Positions 3,176 to 46,327 of a stretch of 64,000 nt of DNA are shown piece by piece. Location of the stretch: NCBI GenBank assembly GCA_023388355.1, contig JAEWGI010000063.1:79269-143268 (forward strand), in the 5' to 3' direction. The translations under genes were made by a program, and so were the position numbers. Within the stretch, counting starts at the first letter, position 1, and each line of letters starts with the position of its first letter. The notes below the pieces were generated by a model. It searched no databases and was not told the origin of the DNA. It worked only from the letters and a program-made list of their open reading frames with translations. The DNA comes from Pseudomonadota bacterium (GTDB lineage Bacteria; Pseudomonadota; Gammaproteobacteria; Xanthomonadales; Xanthomonadaceae).

Positions 3176-3297
3176 CACTGGTTGCGATGCGGAGGGCGTC
3201 GCGGCGGCGATGCCGGCGTTGGATCCGGCTGCGCGGCCCTTCTCCTCGCGACTCCCGAAACTGCGCGTACGCGGGTGTGCGCGCGATGGAGACCTGC

Positions 3298-8442: not shown

Positions 8443-8694
8443 GCAGGGCAGCAGCGCCTGGGGGGCGTCAGCTCCCCTGGACGCGCTGCGGCGGCGGGTC
8501 GGCCGTGGGCGGGTGCGGACAGCTTGCGCGGCGCTGCCGCGCGTCCACACGGACGCGCCCGGTGCGCTGCACCGTGCCGGACCGTGAAGCGGGCCGACCG
8601 GGCCGGGGAGCAATGCCGGAGCGACCCCGACCCGCAGGCGTGAATCCGATCCGTTGCCACGAGCAGTCATCCCGCGAATGGGGGAAGAACCAAT

Positions 8695-8729
8695 AAAAAG
8701 CCCCGCAGGCAGGGGGGGCCGGCGGGGCT
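8695..8729 (-). terminator. Rho-independent terminator of the sX13-like sRNA
   Basis: On the minus strand AGCCCCGC (from 8722-8729) pairs with GCGGGGCT (8699-8706) around a C-rich loop and is followed by a run of five T. It can also stop any transcription reading through from polA, whose stop lies about 220 bases upstream. Confidence 0.85.
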
Positions 8730-8816
8730 GGGGAACGGGACTCGGGGAGAAGTCTTGCGTTCCGGATCTGCTCCAGGGGATGGGAGGAGATCTGCGACAG
8801 ACCTTGCATCTGTCGC
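8695..8816 (-). ncRNA. sX13-like C-rich small RNA downstream of polA
   Basis: The stretch 8695-8816 folds on paper into a chain of stem-loops. The first is a perfect 8-bp stem (8794-8801 with 8809-8816). The second is closed by GATCT/AGATC with a C-rich loop (CTCCCATCCCC). The third is closed by GGAACG/CGTTCC with loop TCTCCCCG. Last comes a strong terminator. A TATAGT -10 lies just upstream (8819-8824). About 120 nt, C-rich loops and the position next to polA match what I recall of the Hfq-dependent Xanthomonas sRNA sX13, which pairs with G-rich mRNA leaders. Homology is inferred from architecture, not alignment. The exact 5' end is uncertain. Confidence 0.72.
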
Positions 8817-18496: not shown

Positions 18497-19237
18497 TCAT
18501 CGCGCCGGCGCCAGCACGTCGACGAAACTGTTGATCGACAGGCGCCCGGTATGGACATCCGCAGGCGGCACCCGCGTGCTGTCGATGTTGCCCGAGTGCA
18601 GCGCGTTGCGCCGGTAGACCACGAGCCGGTTGTAGACGCCGTCGACGCTGCCGATCTGTTCGAACAGGGCGGAGTCCCCGTTGATATAGCCCGGGCCGAC
18701 CGCCTCCTCGTGCCGGCTTTCCTCCTCCAGGGTCTGGAAGTAGGTCGAATGGCGCGAGGCGTCCACGTATTCGAAGCCCGTGGCCCGATGACGGTAGAAG
18801 GCCGTTCCGCCCCAGTCCCCGCGAAACAGGTAATGCATCACGGCCAGGCCGTTGGTCTGCACCGAATCGATGTGCGGGATTCGCTGCAGGAAGGCCAGCC
18901 GCTCCGGCGGCAGGGTCACCAGCGAGAAGTGGCACGTGGGAAAGGTGAACCGCCCCTGCGACGGCAGCCCGAAGTGTTCGTCCAGCAGCGGACGCAGCAG
19001 TTGCTCGAGGAACACTTCATATGACAGCGGCGCGCGCAGGCGCAGCCCCGGGAACAGCGCGCCCTGCCGGGTAAAGTGTCCGCGCCCGGCCTTGCGCACC
19101 AGGCGGTCGGGGTCGGCCACCGCCTGGTCGACGACCAGCAGCGGCGCCCCTTCCGCGCCGATCCGCCGCACCTCAAGGCGCAGTCCGGGGTGGGCCTGGA
19201 TCAGCATCTGCGCGTCACTTGGCCAGGTCTCCGCCAA
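18497..19237 (-). CDS. DUF6445 family protein, possible 2OG-Fe(II) oxygenase-like
   Basis: A soluble protein of up to 246 residues that I associate with DUF6445, a family found beside tryptophan-halogenase-like genes. It contains HIDSVQTNGLAVMHYLF, where HxD could be half of an iron-binding triad, followed by a later histidine (ALHSGNID), as in 2-oxoglutarate/iron dioxygenases. That enzymatic reading is inference. The start is uncertain: the TTG at 19237 overlaps the halogenase by 23 bases, while an ATG at 19207 avoids the overlap; neither has a strong ribosome site. Last gene of the halogenase locus. Confidence 0.75.
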   Translation of the reverse strand: MAETWPSDAQMLIQAHPGLRLEVRRIGAEGAPLLVVDQAVADPDRLVRKAGRGHFTRQGALFPGLRLRAPLSYEVFLEQLLRPLLDEHFGLPSQGRFTFPTCHFSLVTLPPERLAFLQRIPHIDSVQTNGLAVMHYLFRGDWGGTAFYRHRATGFEYVDASRHSTYFQTLEEESRHEEAVGPGYINGDSALFEQIGSVDGVYNRLVVYRRNALHSGNIDSTRVPPADVHTGRLSINSFVDVLAPAR

Positions 19238-20843
19238 CGCCCGCGACCGCGCCGGTCACCCGCTCATGCTGCCGGGCGCGTGCGTACATCTGTTCCCAGG
19301 CCGAGGGTGGCGCCTTGCAGTAGCTGTCGATGAACTGCTCCTGGCTGGGCATGGCCGCCACCATGGCATCGATCGGCCTGCGCACACCCTCGAGCAGGCG
19401 CTTGAGATCGGCGTCCGACACCGCGCGGGTCAGCGGGTGGTGGTTCCGGGGCATCACGCCCTGCCCGAGCATGCAGTGGGTCCAGGAGTCGAGGCGGAAC
19501 AGCTCGTCCTCGCCCTGCCAGGCGTAGCCGGTCTCGCGGAACACCTGGATGCGCTCGGCCAGGCCCGGCGGCAGTTCCATTTCCCGGCACTGCTTCCACA
19601 GGGGCTCGTCACGCTGGTTGAGGTGGTAATGCAGCACGACGAAGTCGCGGACGTGCTCCAGCTCCTGGCGGCTGACCTGGTTGTAGCGGTCCACCGCCGC
19701 CTGGCTGATCCCCTCGAACGGGAAGAACTGCACCAGGCGGGTGACCGCGCTCAGGGTCAGGTGGATGCTGGTGGACTCCAGCGGCTCGATGAAGCCGCTC
19801 GCCAGGCCCAGCGCGATCACGTTCTTGTTCCAGGCCTTGCGCCGGCGTCCGGTGCGGAACGGGATGATCCACGGGTCGCGCAGCGGCTTGGCCGGGTTCT
19901 CGGCGAGCAGTTTCGCGGTCGCCTCGTCGTCGGACATGTGCGCGTCGGAGAACACGATGCCGCAACCGATCCGGTGCTGGAGCGATATCTTCCAGTGCCA
20001 GCCGGCCTCGTGCGCGATCGCGCGCGTGTACGGCACCGCCGGCCCGTCGGCTTCGGTCTGCAGCGCCACCGCGCGGTTGCTTGGCAGCCAGTGGTTCCAG
20101 TCCTCGTAGCCGGTATGCAGGGCCTGCTCGCTCAGCACCGCACGCGCGCCGGTGCAGTCGATGAACAGGTCGCCCTCGATGACCTGCCCATCCTCCAGCA
20201 CCAGCGCCTGCACGTAGCCGCTATCCGGATCCTGGCGCACCTGGGCGATCTTGCCCTCGATGCGCCTGAGTCCGCGGCCCTCGCACTTGACGCGCATGAA
20301 CGCCGCATACAGCCCGGCGTCGAAGTGGTAGGCATAGCTCACATCCTTGCGTTCCATCGTGGCCGCCTGGGTCCAGCGCATCGACCACTGCTGGGCGTTC
20401 TGGCCGGTATTGAGCAAGGCGAAGCGGTCCTGGCGCGCGGCGGCGGTCTCCAGGCAGTAGTCGCCCAGCTCGCCCTGCATGCCGCGGCGGCGGCTCTCCA
20501 GCCAGAACTGGTGGAAGTCGCAGGACCAGGTGTTCACGCCGGTGGTGCCGAACGGATGGAAGTAGTGCGAGCCCGGACGGATCCAGTTCTCGAACGAGAT
20601 CGCCAGCTTGAAGCTGCCGGCCACGGCGCTGAGGAATTCGCGCTCGTCGATCTGCAGCAGCTTGTGGAAGGTGCGGATGGTCGGGATCGTGGACTCGCCC
20701 ACGCCGACGGTGCCGACCTGCTCAGACTCGACCAGGGTGATGTCCAGCAGGTCGCGGAACTGATGGGTCAGCGCGCACGCCGTCACCCAGCCCGCGGTGC
20801 CGCCACCGGCGATGACCACCCTGCGGATCCGGTTCTTTTCCAA
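19215..20843 (-). CDS. Flavin-dependent (tryptophan-halogenase-family) halogenase
   Basis: A 542-residue FADH2-dependent halogenase homologue. The FAD-binding motif GGGTAGW is at residues 13-19. The catalytic lysine aligns at Lys79 (GSFKLAISF), the same number as in PrnA. A Glu in FIEPLESTS (Glu356) matches PrnA Glu346. The halogenase tag WxWxIP reads WHWKIS at 282-287, so its final proline is replaced by serine. The enzyme would form HOCl/HOBr and halogenate an electron-rich aromatic. Homologues in TonB-receptor loci of Xanthomonas are reported to prefer bromination of indoles; the natural substrate here is unknown. It lies between a cupin and a DUF6445 gene. Confidence 0.9.
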   Translation of the reverse strand: MEKNRIRRVVIAGGGTAGWVTACALTHQFRDLLDITLVESEQVGTVGVGESTIPTIRTFHKLLQIDEREFLSAVAGSFKLAISFENWIRPGSHYFHPFGTTGVNTWSCDFHQFWLESRRRGMQGELGDYCLETAAARQDRFALLNTGQNAQQWSMRWTQAATMERKDVSYAYHFDAGLYAAFMRVKCEGRGLRRIEGKIAQVRQDPDSGYVQALVLEDGQVIEGDLFIDCTGARAVLSEQALHTGYEDWNHWLPSNRAVALQTEADGPAVPYTRAIAHEAGWHWKISLQHRIGCGIVFSDAHMSDDEATAKLLAENPAKPLRDPWIIPFRTGRRRKAWNKNVIALGLASGFIEPLESTSIHLTLSAVTRLVQFFPFEGISQAAVDRYNQVSRQELEHVRDFVVLHYHLNQRDEPLWKQCREMELPPGLAERIQVFRETGYAWQGEDELFRLDSWTHCMLGQGVMPRNHHPLTRAVSDADLKRLLEGVRRPIDAMVAAMPSQEQFIDSYCKAPPSAWEQMYARARQHERVTGAVAGVGGDLAK

Positions 20844-20938
20844 GGTACCCCACTCCTTTCAATGGCCCGCCGCGAAGGCGGCTGGCGAAGCAACGACGTC
20901 GCACCAGCGCGGCGCCGGATTCCGCTGCCCGCAGGCGG

Positions 20939-21961
20939 TCAGCGGTTGAGTCTGGACAGCAACGCCGCGCGCATGCGCCGGGCGGCGGTTTCGTCGAACG
21001 GACCGAGCTCGCCGCGGCCCTGCTCGGGCAGGTGCGCGCCGGCCAGCCCGGCCGGACCGAACACGTAGTACTCGAACAGCTCCTTCCAGCCTCGCTTCTC
21101 GTGCTCGGGGCGGTCGCGGATGGACCACAGCGCCATGTTGAGCGCATGCATCGGCGTGGGGATCCACTCCGGCATGCTGCTCCACCAGTAGTTGACCAGC
21201 ACGGTGAACGGATCCAGCCCCTGCACGTGATGCCACCACAGGCTGGGAATGAAGATCGCGTCACCAGGCTCCAGCACGACGGTCTGGCCGGCCTCCATCG
21301 CCGCGGCGAAGCGCGGGTAGCGCTCCAGGTCCGGGGCATCGAAATCCACCACGCTCACTGCCTGGCCGCCCGGCGTGGGCTGCAGCGGGCCCGGGTACAG
21401 GTTGTGCACCTGCTCCGGGGGGAACACGGTGAAGCGGCGCCGGCCGACAGCGCAACAGGCGATGTTGTTCGGCGCGTCGTAATGGCAGGACGCGGTCACC
21501 CGGTTGCCGATCCAGATGCTGGGCGGCGCCTGGACCCCCTGCCGCTCCAGGCCCAGGTCGTTGTGCTGGCGCAGCGCCGGCAGGCAGTAGTCGACCAGCA
21601 GCGAGGCCATGTAGTAGGTGGGCGGCGCCGGGTCGTCCAGATGCGAGGCCAGCTCGTCCAGCACCTGGTCCAGGGTGCCGCGACGCACCTGGCAGTTCAG
21701 CGCGGTGAAATCATCGTTGTAGAACGGCCGGCCGATGGTGGCCGGCTCGCCCCAGTTGTACTGCACCGGGCGTCCGTTGTAGCTGGCACGCAGCTGCTCC
21801 ATTGCCGCCTGCGGCGAGTCCAGCCCGGCCTGCACCAGGCTCCACTGGCGAGCCACGCCCGGAAGCACGGTGGGCAGATTCTCGGCAACGAGGCGATCGA
21901 CCGGCAAGGTCCCGGCGCTGAAACCCTCCAGGACACGCACCTTGGACAACCGGTCGAACAT
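20939..21961 (-). CDS. Cupin-like (JmjC/Cupin_8) protein
   Basis: A 340-residue protein with a JmjC-type cupin core. The iron ligands read CHYDAPNNIA (HxD) and WWHHVQGL (distal His), with an intervening RRRFTVFPPEQ strand typical of Cupin_8. These suggest an Fe(II)/2-oxoglutarate hydroxylase acting on a protein side chain or small molecule. It lies 2 bases from the SapC stop and 95 bases upstream of the halogenase, on the same strand. Partners and substrate are unknown. Confidence 0.85.
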   Translation of the reverse strand: MFDRLSKVRVLEGFSAGTLPVDRLVAENLPTVLPGVARQWSLVQAGLDSPQAAMEQLRASYNGRPVQYNWGEPATIGRPFYNDDFTALNCQVRRGTLDQVLDELASHLDDPAPPTYYMASLLVDYCLPALRQHNDLGLERQGVQAPPSIWIGNRVTASCHYDAPNNIACCAVGRRRFTVFPPEQVHNLYPGPLQPTPGGQAVSVVDFDAPDLERYPRFAAAMEAGQTVVLEPGDAIFIPSLWWHHVQGLDPFTVLVNYWWSSMPEWIPTPMHALNMALWSIRDRPEHEKRGWKELFEYYVFGPAGLAGAHLPEQGRGELGPFDETAARRMRAALLSRLNR

Positions 21962-21963
21962 GT

Positions 21964-22713
21964 TCAGGCCGCCTGGCCCGCCGCCTGTGCGTGCAGCCTG
22001 CTCTGCTTCTCGGCGACCAGCCGTTGCATGTTGTGCAGCGAGGCCACCAGCAGGTAGACGCCTTCCAGCCAGCCGGCGCTGTGCAGCTGGTGCAGCTGGG
22101 TGGCATCCAGCGCGGCCAGGCGCTCGCGGTCGATGCCGTACAGGCCCTCGAGGTTGATCTGGCTGTCGTCGTCGAAACGCACGTTCAGCTGCACCGGCTG
22201 GATCAGCTCCAGGCGCTCGAGTTCCGCGTACATGGTCCTGGCCGCGCCGGCGCCGGCGTGCAGCCCGCGCAGCACCCGGATCACCTTCTCGAGGTACGGG
22301 CTATGGCCGCCATGCGGCGCGAACACCGGGTGGCCCTGCTGGCCATCGCCCAAGCGCGGATGATCCAGGTCGACGTGCAGCACCGGCTCGTTGCGCAGTT
22401 CGCCGTCGACCATCTGTTCCTGGAATCCGATCAGGAACGGACCTCGCGCGACCACCGCCGGCAGGTAGTTGGCCTGCCATTCGTCATCACGCAGGTAGAG
22501 GTTTTCGTTCGCCGCGAAGCCGAGCAGTGCAACGGCATGGAACGAGCCGTCGGGTCCCTTGCGGAAGAAAATCGGGTATTCGCGCTGCATTTCGGCGAAC
22601 TCGGTCGGGAATGCCTCGACCATGCCGACGTCATCACCGTAATCGGTGCTGAAACGTGCTGAAACGCGCAGGTGACTGTGCGCGACGTTGTTGAGCAGTT
22701 CATAACGGGCCAT
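21964..22713 (-). CDS. SapC-like family protein
   Basis: A 249-residue soluble protein of the SapC family (named after a Campylobacter S-layer secretion gene). Matching segments include AEMQREYPIFFRKGPDGSF, ANENLYLRDDEWQANYLP and ARGPFLIGF. No signal peptide or membrane segment is seen despite the family name, so it is presumably cytoplasmic. GGAG lies 7 bases before the ATG at 22713, which was chosen over an upstream in-frame ATG. It sits between the TonB receptor and the cupin gene, an arrangement I recall from other TonB-receptor/halogenase loci. Biochemical role unknown. Confidence 0.85.
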   Translation of the reverse strand: MARYELLNNVAHSHLRVSARFSTDYGDDVGMVEAFPTEFAEMQREYPIFFRKGPDGSFHAVALLGFAANENLYLRDDEWQANYLPAVVARGPFLIGFQEQMVDGELRNEPVLHVDLDHPRLGDGQQGHPVFAPHGGHSPYLEKVIRVLRGLHAGAGAARTMYAELERLELIQPVQLNVRFDDDSQINLEGLYGIDRERLAALDATQLHQLHSAGWLEGVYLLVASLHNMQRLVAEKQSRLHAQAAGQAA

Positions 22714-22776
22714 TTCGGCTCCAACTTGTCTTCGGACCGCAGGGGTCCCTTCCACGAAACAGTGCTTCCCCGGAGG

Positions 22777-22806
22777 ACCATATCGGCAACCGGGTACCGC
22801 CCGCAA
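22777..22806 (-). promoter_or_regulatory. Possible promoter for the SapC-cupin-halogenase genes
   Basis: On the minus strand TTGCGG (22801-22806) and TATGGT (22777-22782) are spaced by 18 bases, between the receptor terminator and the SapC start. This would give the four downstream genes a promoter of their own. The match is by eye. Confidence 0.35.
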
Positions 22807-22832
22807 GCTGCGCGTGGCCTGCGGCACAGCGG

Positions 22833-22866
22833 AAAAAAAAGGGACCGTCGCCGAAGCGACGGTCCC
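22833..22866 (-). terminator. Rho-independent terminator after the TonB receptor
   Basis: A perfect 11-bp stem (GGGACCGTCGC with its complement) with a 4-base loop at 22841-22866 is followed on the minus strand by a run of eight T. It lies 39 bases beyond the receptor stop and separates receptor transcription from the SapC-cupin-halogenase genes, at least partly. Confidence 0.92.
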
Positions 22867-22904
22867 TCGCCTTTCCATGGAACCTGACTACATCGCTGTT
22901 GCGG

Positions 22905-25900
22905 TCAGAACGTGTAACGCAGACCCAGCATGTAACGCGGCGACTGGTCGACCATGCGCACGAACTGGTTGTCCGAACGCGCCTTCCAGCGGACGTCCTC
23001 GCCGGTAAGGTTGATGGCCTCGGCCGCAATCGTCAGCTGGTCGGTCAGCTGGTAGCTCACGGTCAGGTCGATCTGGTCGTACGCCTCGACGAAGTACGGG
23101 TTGCGGTTGTTGCCGTTCTGGTTAGCAGCCATCAGATACTCGTCACGCCAGTTCCAGGCCACACGCGCCGACCATCCGAAGTTCTCGTACATCAGCACGA
23201 GGTTGGCGGTGTCGCTCAGGCCGGTCAGGGCAAACACGTCCGTACCCGGATCGGCGGCACGGTCCACGCCCACGTCACCCTTCACGATGGTGTAGTTGGC
23301 CTGGAAGCCGAAGCCAGTGTCACCGAAGAAGTACTGGCCGCCGATTTCCCAGCCGCGCAGCTTGGCCGCACGCTGGTTGATAGGGCGATTGACGTCGAAC
23401 ATGTACAGCGGGTCGCCGAAGGCGGCGTCGCCGATGATGTCGTACTGGCCCTCGAGCGCGAGCGACTGCGCGTTGGAACCGTCGTACGCCGCCAGGCCAC
23501 CGGTCTCGCTGGCGTAACGGAGCAGCGCGGTGGCAGCGAACAGGGTGGTGTAATTCTGGGCGCAGCCCGTGGCCGGGTCGCCACCCGCCGCGGTCACCTG
23601 CGCAGCACATGCCGGGCTGGCCAGGAACTCGTTGGCAGCCACCGCGTCCGCACCGGAGGTCGGGTCGCGCAGCTCGTACAGGTTCTCGCGCACCACGGTG
23701 TTGCCGATGAAGTTCGTGACGCGCTTGTTCCAGTAGGTCACGCCGATGAAGCTGGAGGGAGCGAAGTACCACTCCACGCCGAGGTCGAAGTTGTCGGACT
23801 CGAGCGGCAGCAGCGACGGGTTCTGGGCGCTGCCGGTGGCACGGAACTGCTCGCCGTAAAGGATCGAGCCGCTGGGCCCACCTGCGGTCGGACCGGCATA
23901 CAGGTTGCCGTACGGCGCGCGGGCGATCGTCTTGCTGAACGACGCACGTCCCTTGATGTCGGAAGTGAAGTCGATGCTGAAGTCGAGGTTCGGCAGCAGG
24001 TAGCTGTAGCTGTTGGTCTCGCTGAACGGCATCGTATCGGGCGAGGTCCGCACCTGGAAGTCGTTGTTCGACAGCCACGCCATGGAGCCCGGCACCTGGA
24101 TGACCGAAGTCGACGTCAGGTCGGTCTTCTCGTAACGCAGGCCGGCAACCGTGTAGGTCGGGAAGTCGCCCAGCATGCCGTCCTGCTCCCACTGGATGTA
24201 GATCGAGCGCGTCTTCTCCTGGACCTGGTTGTCGGAGTCATAGGCGGTACGGACCCGGGACGAGATGTTGTCGCACCGGCTGTTGGCCGCCCACGCCGCG
24301 GGCTGGGTACCGGCGGCGCAATGGGCTTCGGCCCACTGGGCCATCTCGCTGGCGTTGCCGATCCACACGCTCGAGTCGGCCTGGCCGACGTTGTAGTCGT
24401 CGAACTGGTCGGTGATGCTGAACGGGCGCAGCAGCGAAGCGAGGTCGGCGATCTGGCCGCGGTCGACCGAGCCCCAGTCACCCAGGGTCATCAGGTGCGC
24501 ATGGCCGTCGACGTTCAGGCGCCGCATCCTGGTATCGCTGGAGTCGACGCCGAACCGGAAGCGGCCGTTGTCGAATGCGAACTCACCGTCGATCCGGCCC
24601 TGCTTGATCTCGCTGTCCTGCCGGGTCGACCAGATGCGCATGATCTGGCTGCCGAACTGCTCCGGGGGGAATTCCGGAGTGACCACGCCATTGGTGCCGG
24701 CCAGCGCGTCCGGCGTGGTCGGGTACAGCGTGTTCCACGCGATCGGCAGGCCGCTGCCGAACAGGTATTCCTGGGTCCAGTTGTTGGTGCTTGGATCCGG
24801 GGCGAAGCCGCCGAAGCTGAACGCGGTGGAGCTGCCTCCGGTGATCGGGTCGTTGGGACGGCTGCTGTTCTTGGTGTTGTGGGCGTCGAAGGTCAACGAG
24901 AAGCTGTCGTTGAGGTCCCACTTCACGTTCAGGCCGATCGAGTCGAGCTTGAACTTCTGCTGGTCGCGCTGCTGCTCGAAGCCGAAGTCCTTGCCGCCGC
25001 CGGCCAGGTCCCGGATGTAGGACGGGGTCGCGACCAGCGGATCGCCATCGAAGGTCACGTGGGTCAGCTGGTTCTGCAGCCACAGGGTCTGCTCGCCACG
25101 GTTCTGGGCGATCTCGTTGGTCGAGTGGGTGTAGTCCAGGGTGAAGACCACCGCGTCGGTCGGGGCGAACTGCAGCACCGCCTGCGCGTTGAGGCGCTCG
25201 CGCTCGAAGTCCTGGTACGCGTAACGCACGTCGTTCGGCATCGAGTACAGCTGGCCGATCGAAGGCGCGTTCTCGATCACCGCGCCCGGGAGGAAGCGGC
25301 TGTCCGACCCGGTCCAGCGGGCCACGTTCCAGGTGTTCTGGGTGGCCTGGGCCGAGCCGCCGCGACGCTCCTGGTAGCTGGCATTCACGCTCACGCCCCA
25401 GGTCTTGTCCGGGTTGGCGTAGCTGAAGATGCCCGAGATTTCCGGGGTGATGTCGCTGCCAAGGACCTGCGACTGGTCGGAGACCGCCTTGACGCCGGCG
25501 CTGGCGACGATTTCGCCACCGCGGTTGTTGAACGGACGCGAGGTCAGGATGTCGATCGTGGCGCCGATGCCGCCGCTGGGGTTGGAAGCACGGCCGGTCT
25601 TGTACACGGTCACTCCGCTGACGGCCTCGGAGGCCAGCTGGGCGAAGTTGAAGCCTCGGGTACCCGAACCGACGCCGCCGATCTCGAGGCCGCCGCTGCC
25701 GAAACCGTCGGCACCCGGGATCTGGCGGCCGTTGAGGGTGACCAGATTGAAGCCCGGGCCGAAGCCACGCGCGGTGACCTGGGCGCCTTCACCGTCGCGA
25801 CGCTCGATCGAGATGCCGGTGATGCGCTGCAGCGACTCGGCGAGGTTGGTGTCCGGGAACTTGCCGATGTCCTCGGCGCTGATCGCGTCGACGATACCGC

Positions 25901-26117
25901 TGGCGTCGCGCTTGATGTTCATCGAGTTCTCGAGGCTGTTGCGCAGCCCCGTGACGACGATGGTGTCGAGCGTGGAAGCATCGCTCTCGGCTTGCGTTTC
26001 CTGCGCGGCGGGCTGCTGCGGGGCAGGGTCCTGCGCGAATGCGGGGTTGATGACCAGCACGCCACCGATAAAGGTGAACATTGCCTTCGACTTCAAGCCC
26101 TTCAACTTATGGTTCAT
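22905..26117 (-). CDS. TonB-dependent receptor (Xanthomonas/Caulobacter type)
   Basis: A 1070-residue outer-membrane receptor. It has a signal peptide ending at NPAFA, a Pro/Gln/Ala-rich linker, a TonB-box-like TLDTIVVTG, a plug domain with the subfamily hallmarks DAISAEDIGKFPDTNLAESL and ARGFGPGFNLVTLNGRQIPG, and a large beta-barrel ending in MLGLRYTF. This subfamily is expanded in xanthomonads, where members take up plant or chitin sugars; the ligand here is unknown. The 559-base gap upstream holds two operator-like palindromes and no gene. A terminator follows directly. Confidence 0.93.
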   Translation of the reverse strand: MNHKLKGLKSKAMFTFIGGVLVINPAFAQDPAPQQPAAQETQAESDASTLDTIVVTGLRNSLENSMNIKRDASGIVDAISAEDIGKFPDTNLAESLQRITGISIERRDGEGAQVTARGFGPGFNLVTLNGRQIPGADGFGSGGLEIGGVGSGTRGFNFAQLASEAVSGVTVYKTGRASNPSGGIGATIDILTSRPFNNRGGEIVASAGVKAVSDQSQVLGSDITPEISGIFSYANPDKTWGVSVNASYQERRGGSAQATQNTWNVARWTGSDSRFLPGAVIENAPSIGQLYSMPNDVRYAYQDFERERLNAQAVLQFAPTDAVVFTLDYTHSTNEIAQNRGEQTLWLQNQLTHVTFDGDPLVATPSYIRDLAGGGKDFGFEQQRDQQKFKLDSIGLNVKWDLNDSFSLTFDAHNTKNSSRPNDPITGGSSTAFSFGGFAPDPSTNNWTQEYLFGSGLPIAWNTLYPTTPDALAGTNGVVTPEFPPEQFGSQIMRIWSTRQDSEIKQGRIDGEFAFDNGRFRFGVDSSDTRMRRLNVDGHAHLMTLGDWGSVDRGQIADLASLLRPFSITDQFDDYNVGQADSSVWIGNASEMAQWAEAHCAAGTQPAAWAANSRCDNISSRVRTAYDSDNQVQEKTRSIYIQWEQDGMLGDFPTYTVAGLRYEKTDLTSTSVIQVPGSMAWLSNNDFQVRTSPDTMPFSETNSYSYLLPNLDFSIDFTSDIKGRASFSKTIARAPYGNLYAGPTAGGPSGSILYGEQFRATGSAQNPSLLPLESDNFDLGVEWYFAPSSFIGVTYWNKRVTNFIGNTVVRENLYELRDPTSGADAVAANEFLASPACAAQVTAAGGDPATGCAQNYTTLFAATALLRYASETGGLAAYDGSNAQSLALEGQYDIIGDAAFGDPLYMFDVNRPINQRAAKLRGWEIGGQYFFGDTGFGFQANYTIVKGDVGVDRAADPGTDVFALTGLSDTANLVLMYENFGWSARVAWNWRDEYLMAANQNGNNRNPYFVEAYDQIDLTVSYQLTDQLTIAAEAINLTGEDVRWKARSDNQFVRMVDQSPRYMLGLRYTF

Positions 26118-26316
26118 GGAATTATGTCCTCAGCACTGGATTGGAGCGAAGAAAAGCATGTCGCGTGGGCCTGGTGACGGACTTTGCCCGCCACCCGCGC
26201 CAGTGCGGGACCTGAATCTGGTCTTCATCCGACTGCCCTCCCCGTTGTTGCACGACTTCAGTAGGAATCCTCGATGACGCCCTCCTCCGGGCAACCGCGG
26301 ACCCCCTCGGCCCGCG

Positions 26317-26330
26317 TGTCAACACTGTCA
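26317..26330. promoter_or_regulatory. Degenerate copy of the local LacI-type operator
   Basis: TGTCAACACTGTCA matches the operator TGACAACGCTGTCA, found before the GH3 gene, at 12 of 14 positions. It lies 200 bases upstream of the first TonB receptor, in the gap 26118-26676. It could bring that receptor under the same regulator, but symmetry is reduced and chance cannot be ruled out. Confidence 0.35.
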
Positions 26331-26449
26331 AAACGTCCGCTGCCCTGCCCAGCCACCCCGGCCGGGTCCGCTCGTGCGTACCCGGAACGTGGTCCTGAAC
26401 CCTGCGTGTTTCACGGAACGAGCCCGCTTCCCTGCATGTTTATGATTCT

Positions 26450-26463
26450 TGTTAGCGCTAACA
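26450..26463. promoter_or_regulatory. Palindromic LacI/GntR-like operator TGTTAGCGCTAACA
   Basis: A perfect 14-base palindrome with the central CG typical of LacI-family operators lies about 330 bases upstream of the first TonB receptor and about 210 bases beyond the UPF0114 stop. Its sequence differs from the operators near 27.5, 32.4 and 34.1 kb, so a different regulator, not encoded in the window, is implied. The rest of this 559-base gap shows no gene. Confidence 0.7.
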
Positions 26464-26676: not shown

Positions 26677-27330
26677 TCAGTGCGCCGCAGCATGCTCGCG
26701 CCTGGCGGTGCTGCCGGTCATCAGCTTGTCGGTATAGGCGATGCCCAGGGCCGAGAGGATGAAGGCGCCGTGGATGATCGACTGCCACATCACCCCGGCC
26801 GCGCTGACCCGGGTGCAGACCGGCTCGGCCAGGGTCAGGCCGCCGGCGACCGCGGCCGCGTGCGCGCTCATGGCCCCGATGAACTCGGCGCCGCCGCAGA
26901 GCGGCAGCCCGACCTCGCCGGCGGCGATGAAGGTCTTGAGCAGGTGGATCGAGGAAATGCCGATGATCGCCATCGCCAGCTTGACCTTGAGCACGCTGGC
27001 GTTGACGTGGCTGAGCCACTCGGGCTGGTCCGGATGGCCCTGCAGGCCCAGGCGCGAAACGAAGGTCTCGTAGCCGCCCACGATCACCATCACCAGCAGG
27101 TTGGAGATCATCACCACGTCGATCAGCCCCAGCACCAGCAGCATGATTCCCTGCTCGGTCAGGCTGTTGGCGTCGGTCACCAGGTGGGTGAGCTCCTTGA
27201 CGAACAGGAACACATACACGCCCTGGGCGACGATCAGGCCCAGGTAGAGCGGCAGCTGCAGCCAGCGCGAGCCGAAGATCACCCAGGCAAGCGGATGGAG
27301 GCGCGGGCTGTGCGGTGCGGTGGCGGACAT
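26677..27330 (-). CDS. UPF0114 (YqhA-like) membrane protein
   Basis: A 217-residue inner-membrane protein with four hydrophobic segments. The sequence LTHLVTDANSLTEQGIMLLV, LGLIDVVMISNLLVMVIVGGYE and VKLAMAIIGISSIHLLKTFI identify UPF0114. Unlike the roughly 165-residue members, it has an insertion of about 35 residues (GEVGLPLCGGAEFIGAMSAH and following) before the last helix. Function unknown. The start at 27330 directly precedes the conserved domain. It is divergent from the sugar transporter. Confidence 0.85.
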   Translation of the reverse strand: MSATAPHSPRLHPLAWVIFGSRWLQLPLYLGLIVAQGVYVFLFVKELTHLVTDANSLTEQGIMLLVLGLIDVVMISNLLVMVIVGGYETFVSRLGLQGHPDQPEWLSHVNASVLKVKLAMAIIGISSIHLLKTFIAAGEVGLPLCGGAEFIGAMSAHAAAVAGGLTLAEPVCTRVSAAGVMWQSIIHGAFILSALGIAYTDKLMTGSTARREHAAAH

Positions 27331-27510
27331 CGGCGGCCTGTGGCGCGGGAAAGCGCGCGAGCGTAACGGCGGCAGCCGCGCCTGCCAAGCCCCCCCGGCC
27401 GCGCTGTCCGCGATGCCCGGATGGCTGCGCGATGTCGATGTTGCGACGCACACGAACCCGCGCCGCATCAATGATTTGGGGCTGGACCCGAGCGATCTCC
27501 GGGCCTGGTT

Positions 27511-27682: not shown

Positions 27683-29134
27683 ATGACCACCATCAAGACC
27701 CGCTGGTCTCAGTTCGGCGTGCTCGTCACCGTGTTCTTCTTCTGGGGCTTCGTGGCCGCCAGCAACGACATCCTGATCCCGGTCTTCAAGAACGCCTTCC
27801 ACCTTTCGCAGCAGCAGAGCATGTACGTGGCGGTGGCGTTCTACGTCGCCTATACCGTCGGTTCGATCATCTATTTCGGCATCTCGCGCGCGACCGGCGG
27901 CGACGTGCTCAACCGGATCGGCTACAAGAACGGCATCTGCCTGGGCCTGCTGATCTCGGCCGCCGGCTCGCTGCTGTTCTTACCGGCGGCGAACAGCGGC
28001 TCGTTCACGCTGATGCTGTCGGGCCTGTTCATCGTCGGCCTGGGTTTCTCGCTGCAGCAGATCGCGGCCAACCCGCTGGCGATCGTGATGGGCAACCCGG
28101 CCACCGGCGCCCAGCGCCTGACCATGGCCGGCGGCGTCAACAATTTCGGCACCACGATCGGGCCCCTGCTGGTGAGCTTCGCGATCTTCGGCAGCGTGGT
28201 CGGCGGCAACAGCGAGGCCAGCATCGAAAGCGTCAAGGTGCCCTACCTGGTGCTGGGCGCGGCCTTCGTGCTGGTGGCGCTGTTCCTGAAGTTCTCCTCG
28301 GTGCCCAACCGCATCGACCTGGACGGGGTGGCGCGCGACGAGGCCGAGGACGCCAGCCGCCTGGTCAAGCAGAAGTCCGCCTTCGCCTACCCGCAGCTGA
28401 CCCTGGGCATGATCGCGATCTTCCTCTACGTGGGGGTCGAGGTCTCGACCATCGCCAACCTGCCGGCCTACCTGGAGGAAGACCTGGGCATCCCGACCTC
28501 GCAGCTGGCGCCGTATGTGTCGCTGTACTGGGCGAGCCTGATGATCGGGCGCTGGGCCGGCGCGGCCGGCGCGTTCGAGGTCGGCCTGAACGCGCGACGG
28601 ATGCTGACCGTGCTGCTGCCGTACGTCGCGTTCGGCGTGTTCCTGGCGGTGAACGCGATCGCGCGCCACGACGTCACCCAGTTCTTCGGCTATGCGGCGG
28701 TGATCGTGCTGATGATCGTGGCCACCTTCGCCAGCCGCGGCAATCCGGCGCGCATGCTGCTGATCTTCTCGCTGTGCGGCGCGGCCGCGCTGCTGCTGGG
28801 CATGGCCACCACCGGCACCACCAGCATCGTGGCCTTCGTCAGCGTGGGCCTGTTCTGCAGCACGATGTGGCCGTGCATCTTCGCCCTGTCGATCACCGGC
28901 CTGGGGCGCAACACCAACCAGGGCAGCAGCCTGCTGATCATGATGATCATGGGCGGCGGTTTCGTGAGCCTGTTCCAGGGCTGGCTGGCCGACGTGACCA
29001 CGGTGCACATGAGCTTCATCGTCGGCGTCGCCTGCTTCGCCTACCTGGCGTTCTACGCCATGCGCACGCCGGGCATCCTGCGCCGCCAGGGGATCGACCT
29101 CGACCGGTTGACCACCGAGGGTGGCGGCCACTGA
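27683..29134 (+). CDS. Sugar:H+ symporter, FucP/GluP-type MFS transporter
   Basis: A 483-residue inner-membrane carrier with about 12 helices. The start QFGVLVTVFFFWGFVAASND and the segment GFSLQQIAANPLAIVMGNP identify the FucP/glucose-galactose transporter family, which imports monosaccharides with protons. Given the nearby secreted GH3 enzyme, glucose is the likely cargo. The ATG at 27683 fits the first helix; longer in-frame reading would enter the promoter region. It is convergent with the TonB receptor; GC-rich hairpin sequence lies in the 100-base gap. Confidence 0.9.
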   Translation: MTTIKTRWSQFGVLVTVFFFWGFVAASNDILIPVFKNAFHLSQQQSMYVAVAFYVAYTVGSIIYFGISRATGGDVLNRIGYKNGICLGLLISAAGSLLFLPAANSGSFTLMLSGLFIVGLGFSLQQIAANPLAIVMGNPATGAQRLTMAGGVNNFGTTIGPLLVSFAIFGSVVGGNSEASIESVKVPYLVLGAAFVLVALFLKFSSVPNRIDLDGVARDEAEDASRLVKQKSAFAYPQLTLGMIAIFLYVGVEVSTIANLPAYLEEDLGIPTSQLAPYVSLYWASLMIGRWAGAAGAFEVGLNARRMLTVLLPYVAFGVFLAVNAIARHDVTQFFGYAAVIVLMIVATFASRGNPARMLLIFSLCGAAALLLGMATTGTTSIVAFVSVGLFCSTMWPCIFALSITGLGRNTNQGSSLLIMMIMGGGFVSLFQGWLADVTTVHMSFIVGVACFAYLAFYAMRTPGILRRQGIDLDRLTTEGGGH

Positions 29135-29234: not shown

Positions 29235-32200
29235 TCAGAACCGGTAGCGCAGTCCGAGCATGTAGCGCGGGCCGGTCTGGGTGGCATAGAACACCTGCCG
29301 CTCATGCCGCCCGTGCGAGCGCATCGTCTCGTCGGTCAGGTTGATCGCCTCGGCGTGCAGCGAGAGGTTCTCGTTGACCTGGTAGCTGACGTTGACGTCG
29401 ACCTGGCCGTAGGCCTCGACGTGGACCGGGTTCGGGCGCCAGCTGTCGAAGGTGCTCGACAGGAACTCGTCGCGCCAGTTGTAGGCCGCACGCACCTGCC
29501 ACGGACCCCGGTCGTAGAACGCCACCAGGTTGGCCGAATCGCTCAGCCCCAGCAGGGCGAACTGGTCGCCGAGGTTGAAGTCGTCGTAGGTCAGGTCGGA
29601 TTCGACGATGGTGTAGTTGGCCGACATGCCGAAGCCGCTTTCGCCGAACATGTGCTGGATGTTGAGCTCCCAGCCGTCGAGCTGCGAGGACTCCTTGTTC
29701 ACCGGCACGCTGACCCGGAACAGCGCCAGCGGGTCGCCCGGCATGCCGGCGATGGTGCCCAGCGGCTGGCCGTCGGTGCCCACGCCCGTCTGCACCACGC
29801 CCGGCGTGCCCGCGTAGTTGTCGAAGATGTAGCTGCGCACGCAGCCGCGGAAATCGATCGCGCCCTCCACGCAGCCGCTGGCGACGGCCTCGTTGAACCA
29901 CGCGCCGCCCACCGGCGTGCGCAGGTCGAACGGCGAGATCTCCACCATCGAGGTGCCGATGTAGTTGTCGATGTCCTTGCGGAAGTAGCCGACCGAGAGG
30001 TAGCTGGCCTCGCCGTAGTACCACTCGAAGGACAGGTCGAAGTTCCTCGACTCCAGCGGCTTCAGGCCGGGATCGCCCTGGGAGCCGGTACCGCCCTCGT
30101 AGGCGGCGAAGGAATCGAGCGTCTGGCCGCCCTGGATGTGGTTCCACTGCGGCCGGCCGATGCTGTGGCCGTAGCTGCCGCGCAGGATCATGCTGTCGGT
30201 GAGTTCCAGGCCCAGGTCGAGGCTGGGCAGCCAGTACTCGTACTTGCCGCGCAGGGTGGTGAAGTCGGGATCACCGAACTGCACCGAGAACTCGTTGTTG
30301 CCGGTCCACAGCAGGCCGGTCGCGATCGGCACCAGCGCGCTGGAGGTGACCTCGGTCTCCTCGTAGCGCACGCCGGCCGCAACGTGGAGCGGCATACCCA
30401 GCTCGAACGTCTGGTTCCACTGCACGTAGGCGCTCTTCGACTTCTCGGTGGTGCGGCGATCGGTGGAGAAGTCCGACGGCGGCAGGTAGGCCGCCTCGTC
30501 TCCGCCGCGCGCGGCGATCGCGGCCTCGCGCACGGCCAGGAAGTCGAACAGGAAGAACGAGCCGAAGGCGTTGCCGCTGCCCGGGAACTGGTCGAAATAG
30601 CGGCTGATGTCGTCGGCGATCCAGAGGCTGTCGTCATAGTCCGCAGCACCGCCGGCAAACCCGCCCCAGTCGTCGCGCTGGGTGAAGTTGTAGGCGGTGC
30701 GGTTCTGGACCTCGGTATAGGCGACGCCGAAGTCGAGCCGCGAATAGTTGGCGAAATCGAAGCTGCCGCGAACCTGGCCCTGGTCGACTTCCGACTTCAT
30801 GTGGCTGTTGCGGAAGGACGAACCGGTGACCATCATCTGGTCGGCGCCGACCGTGCTCATGCCCGGGGGCAGCAGCACCGACAGCACCGGGAAGTCGCCG
30901 CTGAAATCGACGTTGGTCACGCCGCGCACGAAGGCGGCGGTGCCGATCACGTTGTTCGAGCCATACGGGCTGTTGGCGCCCGATTCGGCGCTCGATCTGT
31001 GGTAGTCGAACTCAAGGTCCAGCGAATCGGTCACGTCCCAGGCCACGTTGAAGCCGAGCGACTTGTTCTCGTTCTTCGTGGCGTTGAGCGAACCGGCCAT
31101 CGCCAGGTCGCCCCAGCGCGGCTCGAAGCCGGCCGGGCAGACGTTGGCCGCATCGCTCGCGGTCCACTGCTCGGTGGCCGGATTGAAGCAGCCGGCGTAC
31201 TCGGTGTAGCTGGTCGGCGCCGCGATCGGGCCGTCGGTCCACGAGGTCTGGGACGCCGCCTGGTTGAACCAGGTCGACAGCTCGTGGCGGCGGGCCTGGA
31301 TCTGGTTCTCGGCGTAGGTGTAGTCGAGCGTGGCGGTGACCCGGTCGGTCGCCTTCCACTGCAGGGTGGCCTGCGCGTTGGTGCGCTGGCGGCTGACGCC
31401 GTTGACCGCGTAGATCAGGTTCTGCGGGATCGAATAGATGTCGCCGGCGCCGGGGGGATTGGTCGCGTTCGCGGCCGGCTCCGGATTGGCCAGCGGCCCC
31501 TCGCCGCCCGGGAACGCGTACCAGCCGCCGCCCACCGCCGCTTCGTTGTAGCCGAAGTCGCGGTCCTGGTAGCTGCCGCTGAGCGCGATGCCGACCCGGC
31601 CGTCGGCGAAGGTGTCGCTGAAGATGCCGGACAGCTCGCCGGTCCACGTGTCGCCGCGCATCGGGCCGGGCAGGTTGTTGACCGAACTGTCGTGCACGGC
31701 CTTGATGCCGACGCTCGCCAGCGTGCCGCTTTCGAGCGGGCGCGCGGTCTTGATGTTGATGGTGGCGCCGATGCCGCCGGTGGGCGTGGCCGCGCGGCTG
31801 GTCTTGTAGACCTCCACGCCCGAGATCGACTCGGAGGCCAGGTTGGCGAAGTCGAACGCGCGCGAGTTCGAAGCGTTGGTCGCCTCGATGCTCGACGCCG
31901 GCATCTGGCGGCCGTTGAGCAGCACCAGATTGAAGTCCGGGCCGACGCCGCGGACGGTGACGCGCGAGCCTTCGCCCATCGAGCGGTCGATCGACACGCC
32001 GCTGATGCGCTGCAGCGATTCGGCCAGATTGGTGTCGGGGAACTTGCCGATGTCCTCGGCGACGATGCCGTCGACGATGCCCTGGGCATCGCGCTTGAGG
32101 TTCATCGACGATTCCAGGCTCGCGCGGATGCCGGTCACGAAGATGGTGTCGAACTCCGCGGGGTCCTCGGCCGGCGCCTGTGCGGGGGCCGGTGGCGGTG

Positions 32201-32300
32201 CGGAATCCTGTGCGGTTTGTGCCGCGAGCGGCGGGGCCAGCGCCAGAAGCAGCGCGGACGTCAACAGGCGCCGCTTCGGCGCCGGGTGCTTGATCTTCAT
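29235..32300 (-). CDS. TonB-dependent receptor of the beta-glucoside locus
   Basis: A 1021-residue outer-membrane receptor of the same subfamily as the one at 22.9-26.1 kb. It has a signal peptide ending at PPLAA, a Pro/Ala-rich linker, the TonB-box-like EFDTIFVTG, plug motifs DGIVAEDIGKFPDTNLAESL and VRGVGPDFNLVLLNGRQMP, and a beta-barrel ending in MLGLRYRF. The ATG at 32300 opens the signal peptide. Its promoter overlaps a LacI-type operator, and it lies between a sugar permease and a GH3 hydrolase gene, so an oligosaccharide (probably beta-glucan fragments) is the likely ligand. Confidence 0.92.
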   Translation of the reverse strand: MKIKHPAPKRRLLTSALLLALAPPLAAQTAQDSAPPPAPAQAPAEDPAEFDTIFVTGIRASLESSMNLKRDAQGIVDGIVAEDIGKFPDTNLAESLQRISGVSIDRSMGEGSRVTVRGVGPDFNLVLLNGRQMPASSIEATNASNSRAFDFANLASESISGVEVYKTSRAATPTGGIGATINIKTARPLESGTLASVGIKAVHDSSVNNLPGPMRGDTWTGELSGIFSDTFADGRVGIALSGSYQDRDFGYNEAAVGGGWYAFPGGEGPLANPEPAANATNPPGAGDIYSIPQNLIYAVNGVSRQRTNAQATLQWKATDRVTATLDYTYAENQIQARRHELSTWFNQAASQTSWTDGPIAAPTSYTEYAGCFNPATEQWTASDAANVCPAGFEPRWGDLAMAGSLNATKNENKSLGFNVAWDVTDSLDLEFDYHRSSAESGANSPYGSNNVIGTAAFVRGVTNVDFSGDFPVLSVLLPPGMSTVGADQMMVTGSSFRNSHMKSEVDQGQVRGSFDFANYSRLDFGVAYTEVQNRTAYNFTQRDDWGGFAGGAADYDDSLWIADDISRYFDQFPGSGNAFGSFFLFDFLAVREAAIAARGGDEAAYLPPSDFSTDRRTTEKSKSAYVQWNQTFELGMPLHVAAGVRYEETEVTSSALVPIATGLLWTGNNEFSVQFGDPDFTTLRGKYEYWLPSLDLGLELTDSMILRGSYGHSIGRPQWNHIQGGQTLDSFAAYEGGTGSQGDPGLKPLESRNFDLSFEWYYGEASYLSVGYFRKDIDNYIGTSMVEISPFDLRTPVGGAWFNEAVASGCVEGAIDFRGCVRSYIFDNYAGTPGVVQTGVGTDGQPLGTIAGMPGDPLALFRVSVPVNKESSQLDGWELNIQHMFGESGFGMSANYTIVESDLTYDDFNLGDQFALLGLSDSANLVAFYDRGPWQVRAAYNWRDEFLSSTFDSWRPNPVHVEAYGQVDVNVSYQVNENLSLHAEAINLTDETMRSHGRHERQVFYATQTGPRYMLGLRYRF

Positions 32301-32833: not shown

Positions 32834-34000
32834 TCAGCGACGCGTGGCGCGCCTGCCGCCCTTCGCCTGTGCCCCCGCACGCACCGGCCCGGTGGAGCGA
32901 CGCAGCTCCAGCGTGTACGGCACGGTGACCATGCCGCCCTCGTCGCGGCTGCGGATGGCCTTGAGCAGTTCCAGGCCCGCCAGCCGCCCCATCTCGCGCG
33001 TGGGCTGGCGCACCGTGGTCAGCGAGGGATAGATGTGGCGGGCGATCGGGGTGTCGTCGAAGCCGCACACCGAAACGTCCCCGGGCACCGCCATGCCGCG
33101 CTCGCAGATCGCACCGATCGCGCCGGCGGCCATGTCGTCGTTGGCGGCAAAGATCGCGGTCGGCGGATCGGGCAGGTCGAGCAGGCGGTTGGTGGCTTCG
33201 AAACCGGAGTCGTAGGAGAACCCGCCCGATATCTCCAGCGCATCGTCGGGCGCGATGCCGGCCTGCGCCAGTCCGTCGCGGTAGCCGGCGTAGCGCCAGG
33301 CGCTGGCGCCGTGCGCGGCGTGGCCCCGGATATGGGCGATGCGCCGGTGCCCCAACGACACCAGGTGGGCGATCATCTCCGCCACCGCGCTGCGCTCGTC
33401 GACCACCACGCCGATGCGGCGGTTGGATTCGGTGGGCGAGATGCTCGACCAGGGAATGTCGAGCTCGTCCAGGCGCGCGAGCAGCGCCGCGTCGTCGGTG
33501 ATCGGCGGGGTCAGCACCACGCCGTCGAGGCGCGACTGCAGCACCAGCGACTCGACCTTGGACACGATGTCCTTGGCGTCGTACACCAGCGGCGCCAGCA
33601 TCAGGTTGTAGTGCTGGGCCTGGCAGGCGTCGAGCACGCCCAGCTCGACCTCCATCAGGTAATTGCTCGACGGGTTGTCGTAGAGCATCGCCACCAGGTA
33701 GGACTTGCGCCCGGCCAGCACCCGCGCCGATGGATGCGGCCGGTACTGCAGCCGCTCGACCACCGCGCGCACCCGCTCGCGGGTGGCGTCTGACACGTTG
33801 GGCTCCTCGTTGAGCACGCGCGAGACGGTCTTCATCGACACGCCCGCCTCGGCCGCCACGTCCTCGATCCTTACCCGTGCCATCGGCCTGCCGGTCCTGT
33901 CCGCGAAGGTCGGGGATTCTGCCAGAGGCGCGGTCGCGCCACGTCCCTGCTCCATGGGGCTGGACGCGGGCTTGCGCCCGCCATCGCGTTGCGGTGCCAT
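32834..34000 (-). CDS. LacI-family transcriptional regulator
   Basis: A 388-residue repressor. The DNA-binding helix-turn-helix and hinge read [20 protein letters not shown] near residues 43-62, followed by a periplasmic-binding-like effector domain ([20 protein letters not shown], later [16 protein letters not shown] and [20 protein letters not shown]). The ATG at 34000 was chosen because GGAGGAG lies 6 bases upstream; an ATG at 33883 would give the usual 349 residues but has only a weak site. The result is an unusual 39-residue N-terminal extension. It probably binds the TGACAACGNTGTCA palindromes in this locus, one of which lies in its own divergent promoter region. Confidence 0.88.
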
Positions 34001-34078
34001 GCTGCTCCTCCGGTTGGCCGATCCGGCTTGTGCTGTGCAACAAGCATCGCCGCCACAGACCGGGTATGGTGCACATTC

Positions 34079-34092
34079 TGACAACGCTGTCA
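34079..34092. promoter_or_regulatory. LacI-type operator in the lacI/GH3 divergent region
   Basis: TGACAACGCTGTCA, one mismatch from a perfect palindrome, lies 66 bases before the GH3 start and 79 bases from the lacI start. A site here can control both the hydrolase and the regulator itself. Confidence 0.8.
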
Positions 34093-34157
34093 TGCCGCGA
34101 CGCGCCATCGCAACGCGGCCGGCAGGCCGGAAAACCGCCACTACGGGACCGACTTAC

Positions 34158-36752
<2,595 letters not shown>

Positions 36753-40168: not shown

Positions 40169-40271
40169 GGAGGTCCAACGGGGGCGGTCAACCGACGGGC
40201 GAACACGATGGGACGTTGGCGCGGACGTCGGGGGAGTGGAAAAGCGCGGTCTATCCTCACGGCGCGATGGC

Positions 40272-40277
40272 TATACT
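40272..40277 (+). promoter_or_regulatory. Possible -10 element of the pigment cluster's right-facing arm
   Basis: TATACT lies 25 bases before the GTG start of the ketosynthase gene. No good -35 is visible. If used, it excludes the in-frame ATG at 40267 as a start, because transcription would begin after it. Confidence 0.4.
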
Positions 40278-40302
40278 CGGCCGGCTTTTCACAGGACGCG
40301 CC

Positions 40303-41532: not shown

Positions 41533-42308
41533 GCGTACTGGCCGCCCGCATCGCCGGCATCGGCTGGTGGAGCGACGGCCTGCCCGACTGGGCCGCCGCG
41601 CGCGCGTTCGCATCCACCGGCGCGTTGCCTGCCGAGGCCCCAGCCAAACCTGCGCCGACCCTGCTGGCGCCCAACGAGCGCCGCCGCGCGCCGCCCTCGG
41701 TGCTGGTTGCGCTGGAGGTCGCGCTCGCGGCCTGTGGCGATGCCGGCATCGCGCCCGATACGCTGCCGTCGGTGTTCACCTCCACCCACGGCGACCTGGG
41801 CATCACCGACTACATGTGCGCCACCCTCGCGGCCGCGCCCGCCGAAGTCTCGCCGACGAAGTTCCACAACTCCGTGCACAACGCCGCCGCCGGCTACTGG
41901 ACCATCGGCAGCGGCTGCATGCGCACCACCACCGCGATCAGCGCGCACCGGGCCAGCTTCGCCCAGGGCCTGGTCGAGGCGATGGTGCAGCTGGCCACCG
42001 ACGCCGACGCGGTGCTGCTGGTGGGCTACGACACCAGCGCCAGCGGCCTGCTGTCCACGGTGACGCGCAGCCAGGGCCTGCTCGGTGGCGCCCTGGTGCT
42101 GGTGCGCGACGGCGACGGCCCGCTGCTGTCGGCGCGGCTGGAACAGGGCGATGCCGCTGCCGGCGACGGCCCGCTGTCCACGCGCGCGCAGGGCAATGCG
42201 ATGGCGCCGATGCTGCCCCTGTTCGACGCGCTGGCCGCGGGCGATGCGGCCACGGTGCTGCATGCCGGGCCCGGCAGGCGGCTGGTGCTGGACATCGACC
42301 ATGGCTGA
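41529..42308 (+). CDS. Beta-ketoacyl synthase-like chain-length factor
   Basis: A 259-residue protein matching the N-terminal half of ketosynthases, as in the partner subunit of aryl-polyene ketosynthases. It contains VFTSTHGDLGITDYMCATLA and HNSVHNAAAGYWTIGSGC, and lacks an obvious catalytic Cys-His-His set, so it probably supports the KS as a heterodimer partner. It overlaps the KS gene by four bases and the glycosyltransferase gene by eight. Part of the pigment cluster. Confidence 0.88.
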   Translation: MSVLAARIAGIGWWSDGLPDWAAARAFASTGALPAEAPAKPAPTLLAPNERRRAPPSVLVALEVALAACGDAGIAPDTLPSVFTSTHGDLGITDYMCATLAAAPAEVSPTKFHNSVHNAAAGYWTIGSGCMRTTTAISAHRASFAQGLVEAMVQLATDADAVLLVGYDTSASGLLSTVTRSQGLLGGALVLVRDGDGPLLSARLEQGDAAAGDGPLSTRAQGNAMAPMLPLFDALAAGDAATVLHAGPGRRLVLDIDHG

Positions 42309-46307: not shown

Positions 46308-46327
46308 CTTCAGGCCTTGGAGGGCTT

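Follow-up and report, generated by a model that had tools for sequence, protein, structure and literature searches.

What is a halogenase gene doing beside the gene for an outer-membrane receptor? The question is raised by a 64,000-nucleotide stretch of DNA from a member of the Xanthomonadaceae (assembly GCA_023388355.1, contig JAEWGI010000063.1, positions 79,269 to 143,268; called the window below), where an initial annotation, made from the letters alone, had described five same-strand genes encoding a TonB-dependent receptor (TBDR), a SapC-like protein, a JmjC-type cupin (Cupin_8), a flavin-dependent halogenase (FDH) and a DUF6445 protein. All five are present on the minus strand where they were claimed in the list of open reading frames (ORFs), and the codon-position GC content of all five ORFs has the pattern of real genes. 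We find that the association of these genes is real, far beyond chance, and wider than the initial annotation could know.

Read in the direction of transcription, the set begins with the TBDR (22905..26117, minus strand), which matches TIGR01782 (TonB-Xanth-Caul) at 725.7 bits against a cut-off of 310 and whose N-terminus has a hydrophobic, signal-sequence-like segment. It is followed on the same strand by SapC (21964..22713; PF07277, 224.5 bits), a Cupin_8/JmjC-type, FIH-like protein (20939..21961; PF13621, 225.5 bits), an FDH of the BrvH/Xcc4156 class (19215..20843; PF04820, 615.5 bits) and DUF6445 (18497..19207; PF20043, 264.6 bits). Alignment with relatives gives 22713 rather than 22878 as the likely start of SapC, and 19207 rather than 19237 as that of DUF6445.

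The set recurs. Our conservation set comprised 54 loci from an FDH-based scan of named genomes, in which similarity to the window FDH biases the sample towards close relatives. The order TBDR-SapC-Cupin_8-FDH is kept in 34 of the 54, with DUF6445 next in line in 28 of those 34; two of the 34 come from Asticcacaulis (Alphaproteobacteria), and the similar neighborhoods that had been supposed to exist in xanthomonads and caulobacters thus form a recurring receptor-linked set. Another locus (L019) has the four enzyme-side genes without a receptor match on its contig, and five Burkholderiales loci (L037, L038, L039, L041 and L044) have a receptor-like match beside the FDH without a match to SapC or Cupin_8. 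The genomes closest to the window are Pseudoxanthomonas and Luteimonas (the FDH is 91–94% identical in L001 to L008), and among the close matches Luteimonas marina (L008) is nearest in its neighboring genes.

The initial annotation had staked its proposal on these families co-occurring across genomes beyond chance, and they do so. Co-occurrence was scored in one even draw of 249 genomes from the phylum of the Pseudoxanthomonas genome G001, with strong matches kept. For FDH (E ≤ 1.3e-88, at most 6 candidates scored per genome) these are at least 83 places in at least 24 genomes, and a broader tally at E 0.001 finds the family in at least 114 of the 249; for Cupin_8 (E ≤ 7.4e-26) they are 37 places in 19 of 40 genomes; for DUF6445, 19 of 20 matches in 11 of 12 genomes, one broken fragment having been dropped; and for SapC, counted where another of the families is also present, at least 46 places in 25 of 84 SapC genomes among the matches listed. 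Among these matches, 23 of the 24 FDH genomes have SapC (Fisher p 2.6e-11), 14 have Cupin_8 (6.7e-13) and 11 have DUF6445 (5.5e-13), all three p values ignoring kinship; within 5 kb of a listed FDH lie 23 of the 37 Cupin_8, 22 of the 46 SapC and 10 of the 19 DUF6445 genes.

Linkage to the receptor was measured in six FDH-rich genomes, which carry 4 to 16 FDHs each (54 in all, every candidate scored). TIGR01782 receptors exceed the cut-off at 74 places in these genomes, counted after merging two pieces of one frame and with the receptor candidates of two genomes incompletely scored. A receptor lies within 5 kb of 47 of the 54 FDHs, where 2.5 would be expected, and within 1 kb of 24. Seen from the other side, 33 of the 74 receptors are linked to an FDH, 1 is linked only to another cassette gene and 40 are linked to none. 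On a FastTree tree of 76 receptors (the 74 and the two of the window) the FDH label changes 11 times against 25.0 when shuffled (0 of 500 shuffles as low). Distances between FDHs are also correlated with those between their paired receptors (r 0.28 over 32 pairs), a value reached in 1 of 5000 permutations made freely and in 0 of 5000 made within genomes.

What chemistry might such a set perform? The catalytic Lys and Glu that had been read in the halogenase are there, as Lys79 and Glu356, together with the GxGxxG motif GGGTAG. Lys and Glu are each present in 51 of the 54 FDHs of the six genomes, the same three proteins lacking both, and in 54 and 53 respectively of the 54 named-genome loci, the exception (L036) being a copy for which a partial frame was read. 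In three loci (L295, L296 and L297, in G246, G228 and G029) a PF04820 protein without Lys and Glu directly adjoins an intact FDH, and is possibly its non-catalytic partner. The best solved relatives of the window FDH are 9luq (E 5e-158), Xcc4156 (6y1w, 1e-155) and BrvH (6frl, 2e-126), ahead of the best tryptophan 5-halogenase (7e-89). At the halide-loop position after ST, the window FDH (Ser359), BrvH and 9luq have Ser, Xcc4156 has Asn and the tryptophan 5-halogenase has Gly; Ser occurs there in 37 of the 54 six-genome FDHs and 50 of the 54 named-genome FDHs. Ser359 presumably occupies the position of Gly349 of PrnA, which we take to make a halide contact.

BrvH and Xcc4156 thus share with the window FDH the catalytic pair and a Ser or Asn in place of Gly, and, according to the accessible text of PMC5945002 and PMC7336383, both prefer bromide, a preference to which the replaced residue may be related. 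As had been said of the closest published FDHs, these brominate indoles in vitro and their native substrates are given as unknown (same sources, as accessible); BrvH is only weakly active on indole, and the authors question whether this is the natural substrate (PMC5945002). Free tryptophan was considered as a substrate of the window FDH and rejected on the strength of its relatives, since BrvH and Xcc4156 are reported in these papers to be inactive on it. The main texts of the two papers make no mention of TonB, a receptor, SapC or a cupin, so neither describes the receptor-linked set. A PF01613 flavin reductase occurs in three of the six FDH-rich genomes, 39.9 kb from an FDH at the nearest and more than 360 kb away in the other two; a search limited to that family gave no match in G239, G246 and G029 (9, 7 and 8 FDHs), and so another reductase must feed their FDHs, if these are active.

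The other two enzymes resemble iron- and 2-oxoglutarate (2OG)-dependent oxygenases. Cupin_8 has the iron-binding HxD and distal His ascribed to it (His160-x-Asp162 and His244, each of them retained by 36 of 36 relatives), and it is nearest to FIH (E 8e-21), with a JmjC-type core recognized by sequence match. The protein hydroxylases FIH and JMJD5 have the same core and the same HxD...H metal site; Cupin_8 of the window differs from them in being bacterial and receptor-linked. For DUF6445 a possible third iron site had been suggested, and this can be raised to a predicted 2OG-Fe(II) oxygenase: the predicted fold is a double-stranded beta-helix, and His112-x-Asp114, His204 and Arg222 (HxD...H...R) are invariant in 31 aligned proteins, four of them only 34–37% identical to that of the window. 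Most of its best fold matches, with those within one Z unit counting as tied, are protein hydroxylases, and they include the prolyl hydroxylases OGFOD1/Tpa1, PHD2 and bacterial P4H at 10–17 percent identity; a sequence-level search of the PDB gave only an unrelated match (E 0.74). DUF6445 also matches a phage family labeled minor coat protein (phrog_1644, E 1.7e-12), a label that may be misleading given the predicted oxygenase fold.

SapC is the member that resembles no solved protein found in our structure search. Its namesake functions in S-layer secretion. None of the 15 window proteins scanned for S-layer or secretion genes is of that kind (other neighbors were not scanned for these), and by hydropathy SapC has no obvious N-terminal signal sequence; on hydropathy, too, the enzyme module as a whole would be cytosolic. 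Three SapC genes elsewhere (L100, L101 and L103) have Mu-type phage portal proteins among their neighbors (PF06074 in 3 of 36 scanned neighbors).

We take the TIGR01782 group, in part from PMC1790865, to be one of carbohydrate uptake, and judged by its gene content the setting of the set is a carbohydrate-utilization (CUT) locus. Such loci of Xanthomonas, among them sux and the xylan/xylose loci, combine a carbohydrate-type receptor, an inner-membrane sugar transporter, a degradative enzyme and a regulator (PMC1790865, in its accessible text), and the window has the same four parts. Beside the receptor, carbohydrate-type by its TIGR01782 score, these are a major facilitator superfamily (MFS) sugar transporter (27683..29134, plus strand), whose nearest models GluP, FucP and NagP (glucose/galactose, fucose and N-acetylglucosamine transporters) score below their cut-offs; a GH3 glycoside hydrolase with an Exop_C domain (33975..36752, plus), whose true start lies inside the listed frame; and a LacI-family regulator (listed as 32834..34141, minus), whose helix-turn-helix begins at residue 92, so that its true start is later than that of the listed ORF. 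Where the window differs from those loci is in the four-gene SapC/Cupin_8/FDH/DUF6445 set; PMC1790865, as accessible, mentions no halogenase, SapC, cupin or tryptophan. A second TIGR01782 receptor (29235..32300, minus) groups with the FDH-linked receptors on the tree, and a UPF0114 membrane protein (26677..27333, minus) is probably a bystander.

Similar company is kept elsewhere: among 152 of the 220 ORFs with 190 amino acids or more, taken from 19 of 20 FDH regions (L127 was left out), the top 25 families per batch include receptor plug domains (16 proteins), MFS, LacI, GH3, GH10, GH13, GH1, GH30, GH97 and glucoamylase, along with clearly unrelated housekeeping genes. With so many glycan-hydrolase families near FDHs, a single shared glycan substrate is unlikely.

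A LacI-family operator-like palindrome, TGTTAGCGCTAACA (26450..26463), stands upstream of the receptor, about 333 bp before the start of its gene, and is identical in 13 of 14 positions to the published Xanthomonas xyl-box TGGTAGCGCTAACA (PMC7748154 and PMC10380989, as accessible); with one base between them, the regulated sugar is possibly xylan- or glucan-derived. The interval first proposed for the system, 18497..26463, ends on the outer edge of this palindrome and is only one part of the sugar locus, which as a whole reaches about 36.7 kb. If up to 3 mismatches are allowed, TGTTAGCGCTAACA matches the window twice where 0.67 is expected, and weight can be given to the exact match alone. There is a single occurrence of the degenerate form TGNTANCGNTANCA in the window (0.01 expected), and hence none before the other genes of the locus; 27 of 33 relatives have this form close to the start of the receptor gene, a count without a shuffle control.

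Transcription of all five genes as one operon that includes the receptor was considered and rejected, since the gap between TBDR and SapC holds a conserved terminator-like hairpin of 13 pairs followed by a T-run (22868-22839, minus strand). By the criteria of our own script, 29 of 32 relatives have such a hairpin in that gap; one more, L014, was dropped for its misplaced SapC start. The number of terminator-like sites in the region, 3 against a shuffle mean of 4.5, is not above shuffles, and the case for a terminator therefore rests on conservation. Receptor and enzyme genes are thus probably not one simple operon, and transcription of the latter probably depends on readthrough or on a promoter of their own. 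A consensus scan found no sigma-70-like promoter.

That uptake genes and a recurring SapC/Cupin_8/FDH/DUF6445 set linked to TIGR01782 receptors make up this locus is, from gene content and order, nearly certain. As to function, we tentatively propose, giving the statement as a whole somewhat less than an even chance, a sugar-induced CUT locus in which a cytosolic module, linked to the receptor, carries out the oxidative modification of a polypeptide. A sugar would relieve LacI repression and the receptor would be made, the module being made by readthrough or from its own promoter; the cytosolic FDH, probably bromide-preferring, would use FADH2 from a general reductase, and with the two predicted Fe(II)/2OG oxygenases it would halogenate or hydroxylate the side chains of a polypeptide that SapC holds or presents. 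The target might be the receptor precursor, modified before it is exported, or a different protein belonging to this uptake route. MibH-type peptide halogenases and the flavoenzymes LodB, GoxB and QhpG act on peptide- or protein-bound residues. The likeness of the window FDH to these is slight: MibH (5uao), described as a peptide halogenase in the accessible text of PMC7336383, is a distant match, and the QhpG, LodB and GoxB models show weak similarity, far below their cut-offs. The polypeptide reading comes instead from the nature of the nearest relatives of the module proteins and from the open active site of Xcc4156. Of the two targets first suggested, the protein side chain is tentatively favored, by analogy with the nearest structural relatives; the imported aromatic finds no support beside a TIGR01782-type receptor with LacI, GH3, a sugar MFS transporter and a LacI-type operator, and with FDH loci near several glycan-hydrolase families.

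Several observations weigh against a polypeptide target. In its strongest form the polypeptide reading would have a shared modified site on the receptor, and no receptor residue is universal to the FDH-linked receptors. The best ones, R1061 (28 of 34 FDH-linked against 12 of 41 other receptors), W990 (24 against 10) and S728 (23 against 9), are enriched before kinship correction. Across about 10 independent pairs none of them reaches significance (R1061 1.5 for and 1.3 against, W990 0.5 and 0.2, S728 4.7 and 0.7 with median p 0.22), in a weak test where 0.05 is out of reach with fewer than 6 informative pairs. In the two gaps and the receptor 5' region, the parts that were searched for one, no conserved precursor peptide of the kind expected in a MibH-like RiPP pathway was recognized. 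The small-molecule 2OG oxygenases HygX, AndA and PasI are also among the fold matches of DUF6445. Shared descent of the linked genes could give part of the FDH-receptor linkage signal, and shared operon descent alone can yield the correlation of their distances. Finally, 14 of the 37 Cupin_8, 24 of the 46 SapC and 9 of the 19 DUF6445 genes lie away from any listed FDH, and 19 of the 20 top-scoring SapC loci have no FDH, receptor, Cupin_8 or DUF6445 profile match within about 1.5 kb. The module may act on another protein, on a variable site or on a small molecule.

A small molecule could enter in two ways. The module might process an imported aromatic-decorated glycan or its aglycone (for example a phenolic ester or aryl glucoside) after entry through the MFS transporter, for catabolism or detoxification. 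The presence of receptor, sugar MFS and GH3 in one locus, the linkage of FDHs to receptor subfamilies on the tree and the action of BrvH and the Xcc halogenases on small indoles in vitro all suit this idea; against it, the hydrolases near FDHs are too varied to indicate one aromatic substrate, most relatives of Cupin_8 and DUF6445 are protein hydroxylases, and the indole activity of BrvH is low and of doubted relevance. We regard it as possible but rather doubtful. Alternatively the FDH and its partners might make or tailor a diffusible product, such as a brominated pigment of aryl-polyene type or a signal of sugar excess, with the receptor linked by sugar response only. Brominated xanthomonadins do occur in this bacterial family, and about 20–30 kb from the FDH the window has a polyene/pigment-type cluster (40236-54388) with a ketosynthase, an acyl carrier protein, FabG, acyltransferases, an MMPL exporter and two flavoproteins that distantly match Trp_halogenase. 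That cluster, however, has these flavoproteins of its own; the receptor-linked set is found in Asticcacaulis as well, with receptor-FDH neighbors in Burkholderiales, and 4 to 16 FDHs per genome, 47 of 54 of them close to a receptor, are unlike the needs of one pigment. We consider this unlikely.

Enzymes of the Fe/2OG and flavin types are sensitive to the levels of oxygen and metabolites, and the cassette is linked to a receptor with an operator-like site, so that its enzymes might protect or sense, consuming oxygen, hypohalite or 2-oxoglutarate and, as a redox or oxygen sensor without a specific modified target, tuning receptor production. None of the four cassette proteins matched a DNA-binding domain, and the retention of catalytic residues in nearly every aligned copy suggests turnover on a real substrate; we judge this account improbable. 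Much the same small likelihood attaches to a hitch-hiking cluster, in which the genes do separate jobs in an order inherited from one ancestor. Most of the close loci are indeed in related xanthomonads (Pseudoxanthomonas, Luteimonas, Lysobacter, Rhodanobacter and kin), and SapC, Cupin_8 and DUF6445 are each also found apart, but against it the genes are also linked in distant lineages, and a single genome can carry several paralogous sets.

If the cassette does modify a protein, as in the polypeptide reading, it would explain what the halogenases of the BrvH/Xcc4156 class do, and would connect halogenation with the uptake of sugars in a group whose six examined members carry 4 to 16 such enzymes each. 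That sugar receptors of xanthomonads, caulobacters and their kin should depend on a dedicated cytosolic system for halogenating and hydroxylating side chains of an exported or uptake-route protein presented by SapC is a claim we think has little chance of being right; if true, it would be a halogen-based post-translational modification tied to nutrient uptake. Independently of target, a sharp gene set is defined, and DUF6445 gains a predicted fold and a probable chemistry. Halogenase, TonB receptor and SapC are not joined in the accessible parts of PMC5945002, PMC7336383, PMC8269204, PMC7748154, PMC10714752, PMC10380989, PMC4911050, PMC1790865 and PMC11340318, a sample outside which most of the subscription literature lies and which does not show absence from print.

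Some minor features complete the picture of the window. The receptor 5' region (26100-26250) contains a block, GGGGAGGG ... ATG ... CCCGCACTG, that is conserved in relatives and not clearly coding, and for which an Rfam search gave no match at the gathering threshold. Elsewhere in the window, Rfam matches are a cobalamin riboswitch (2953-3184, plus strand) and an sX13 small RNA (8694-8805, minus strand).

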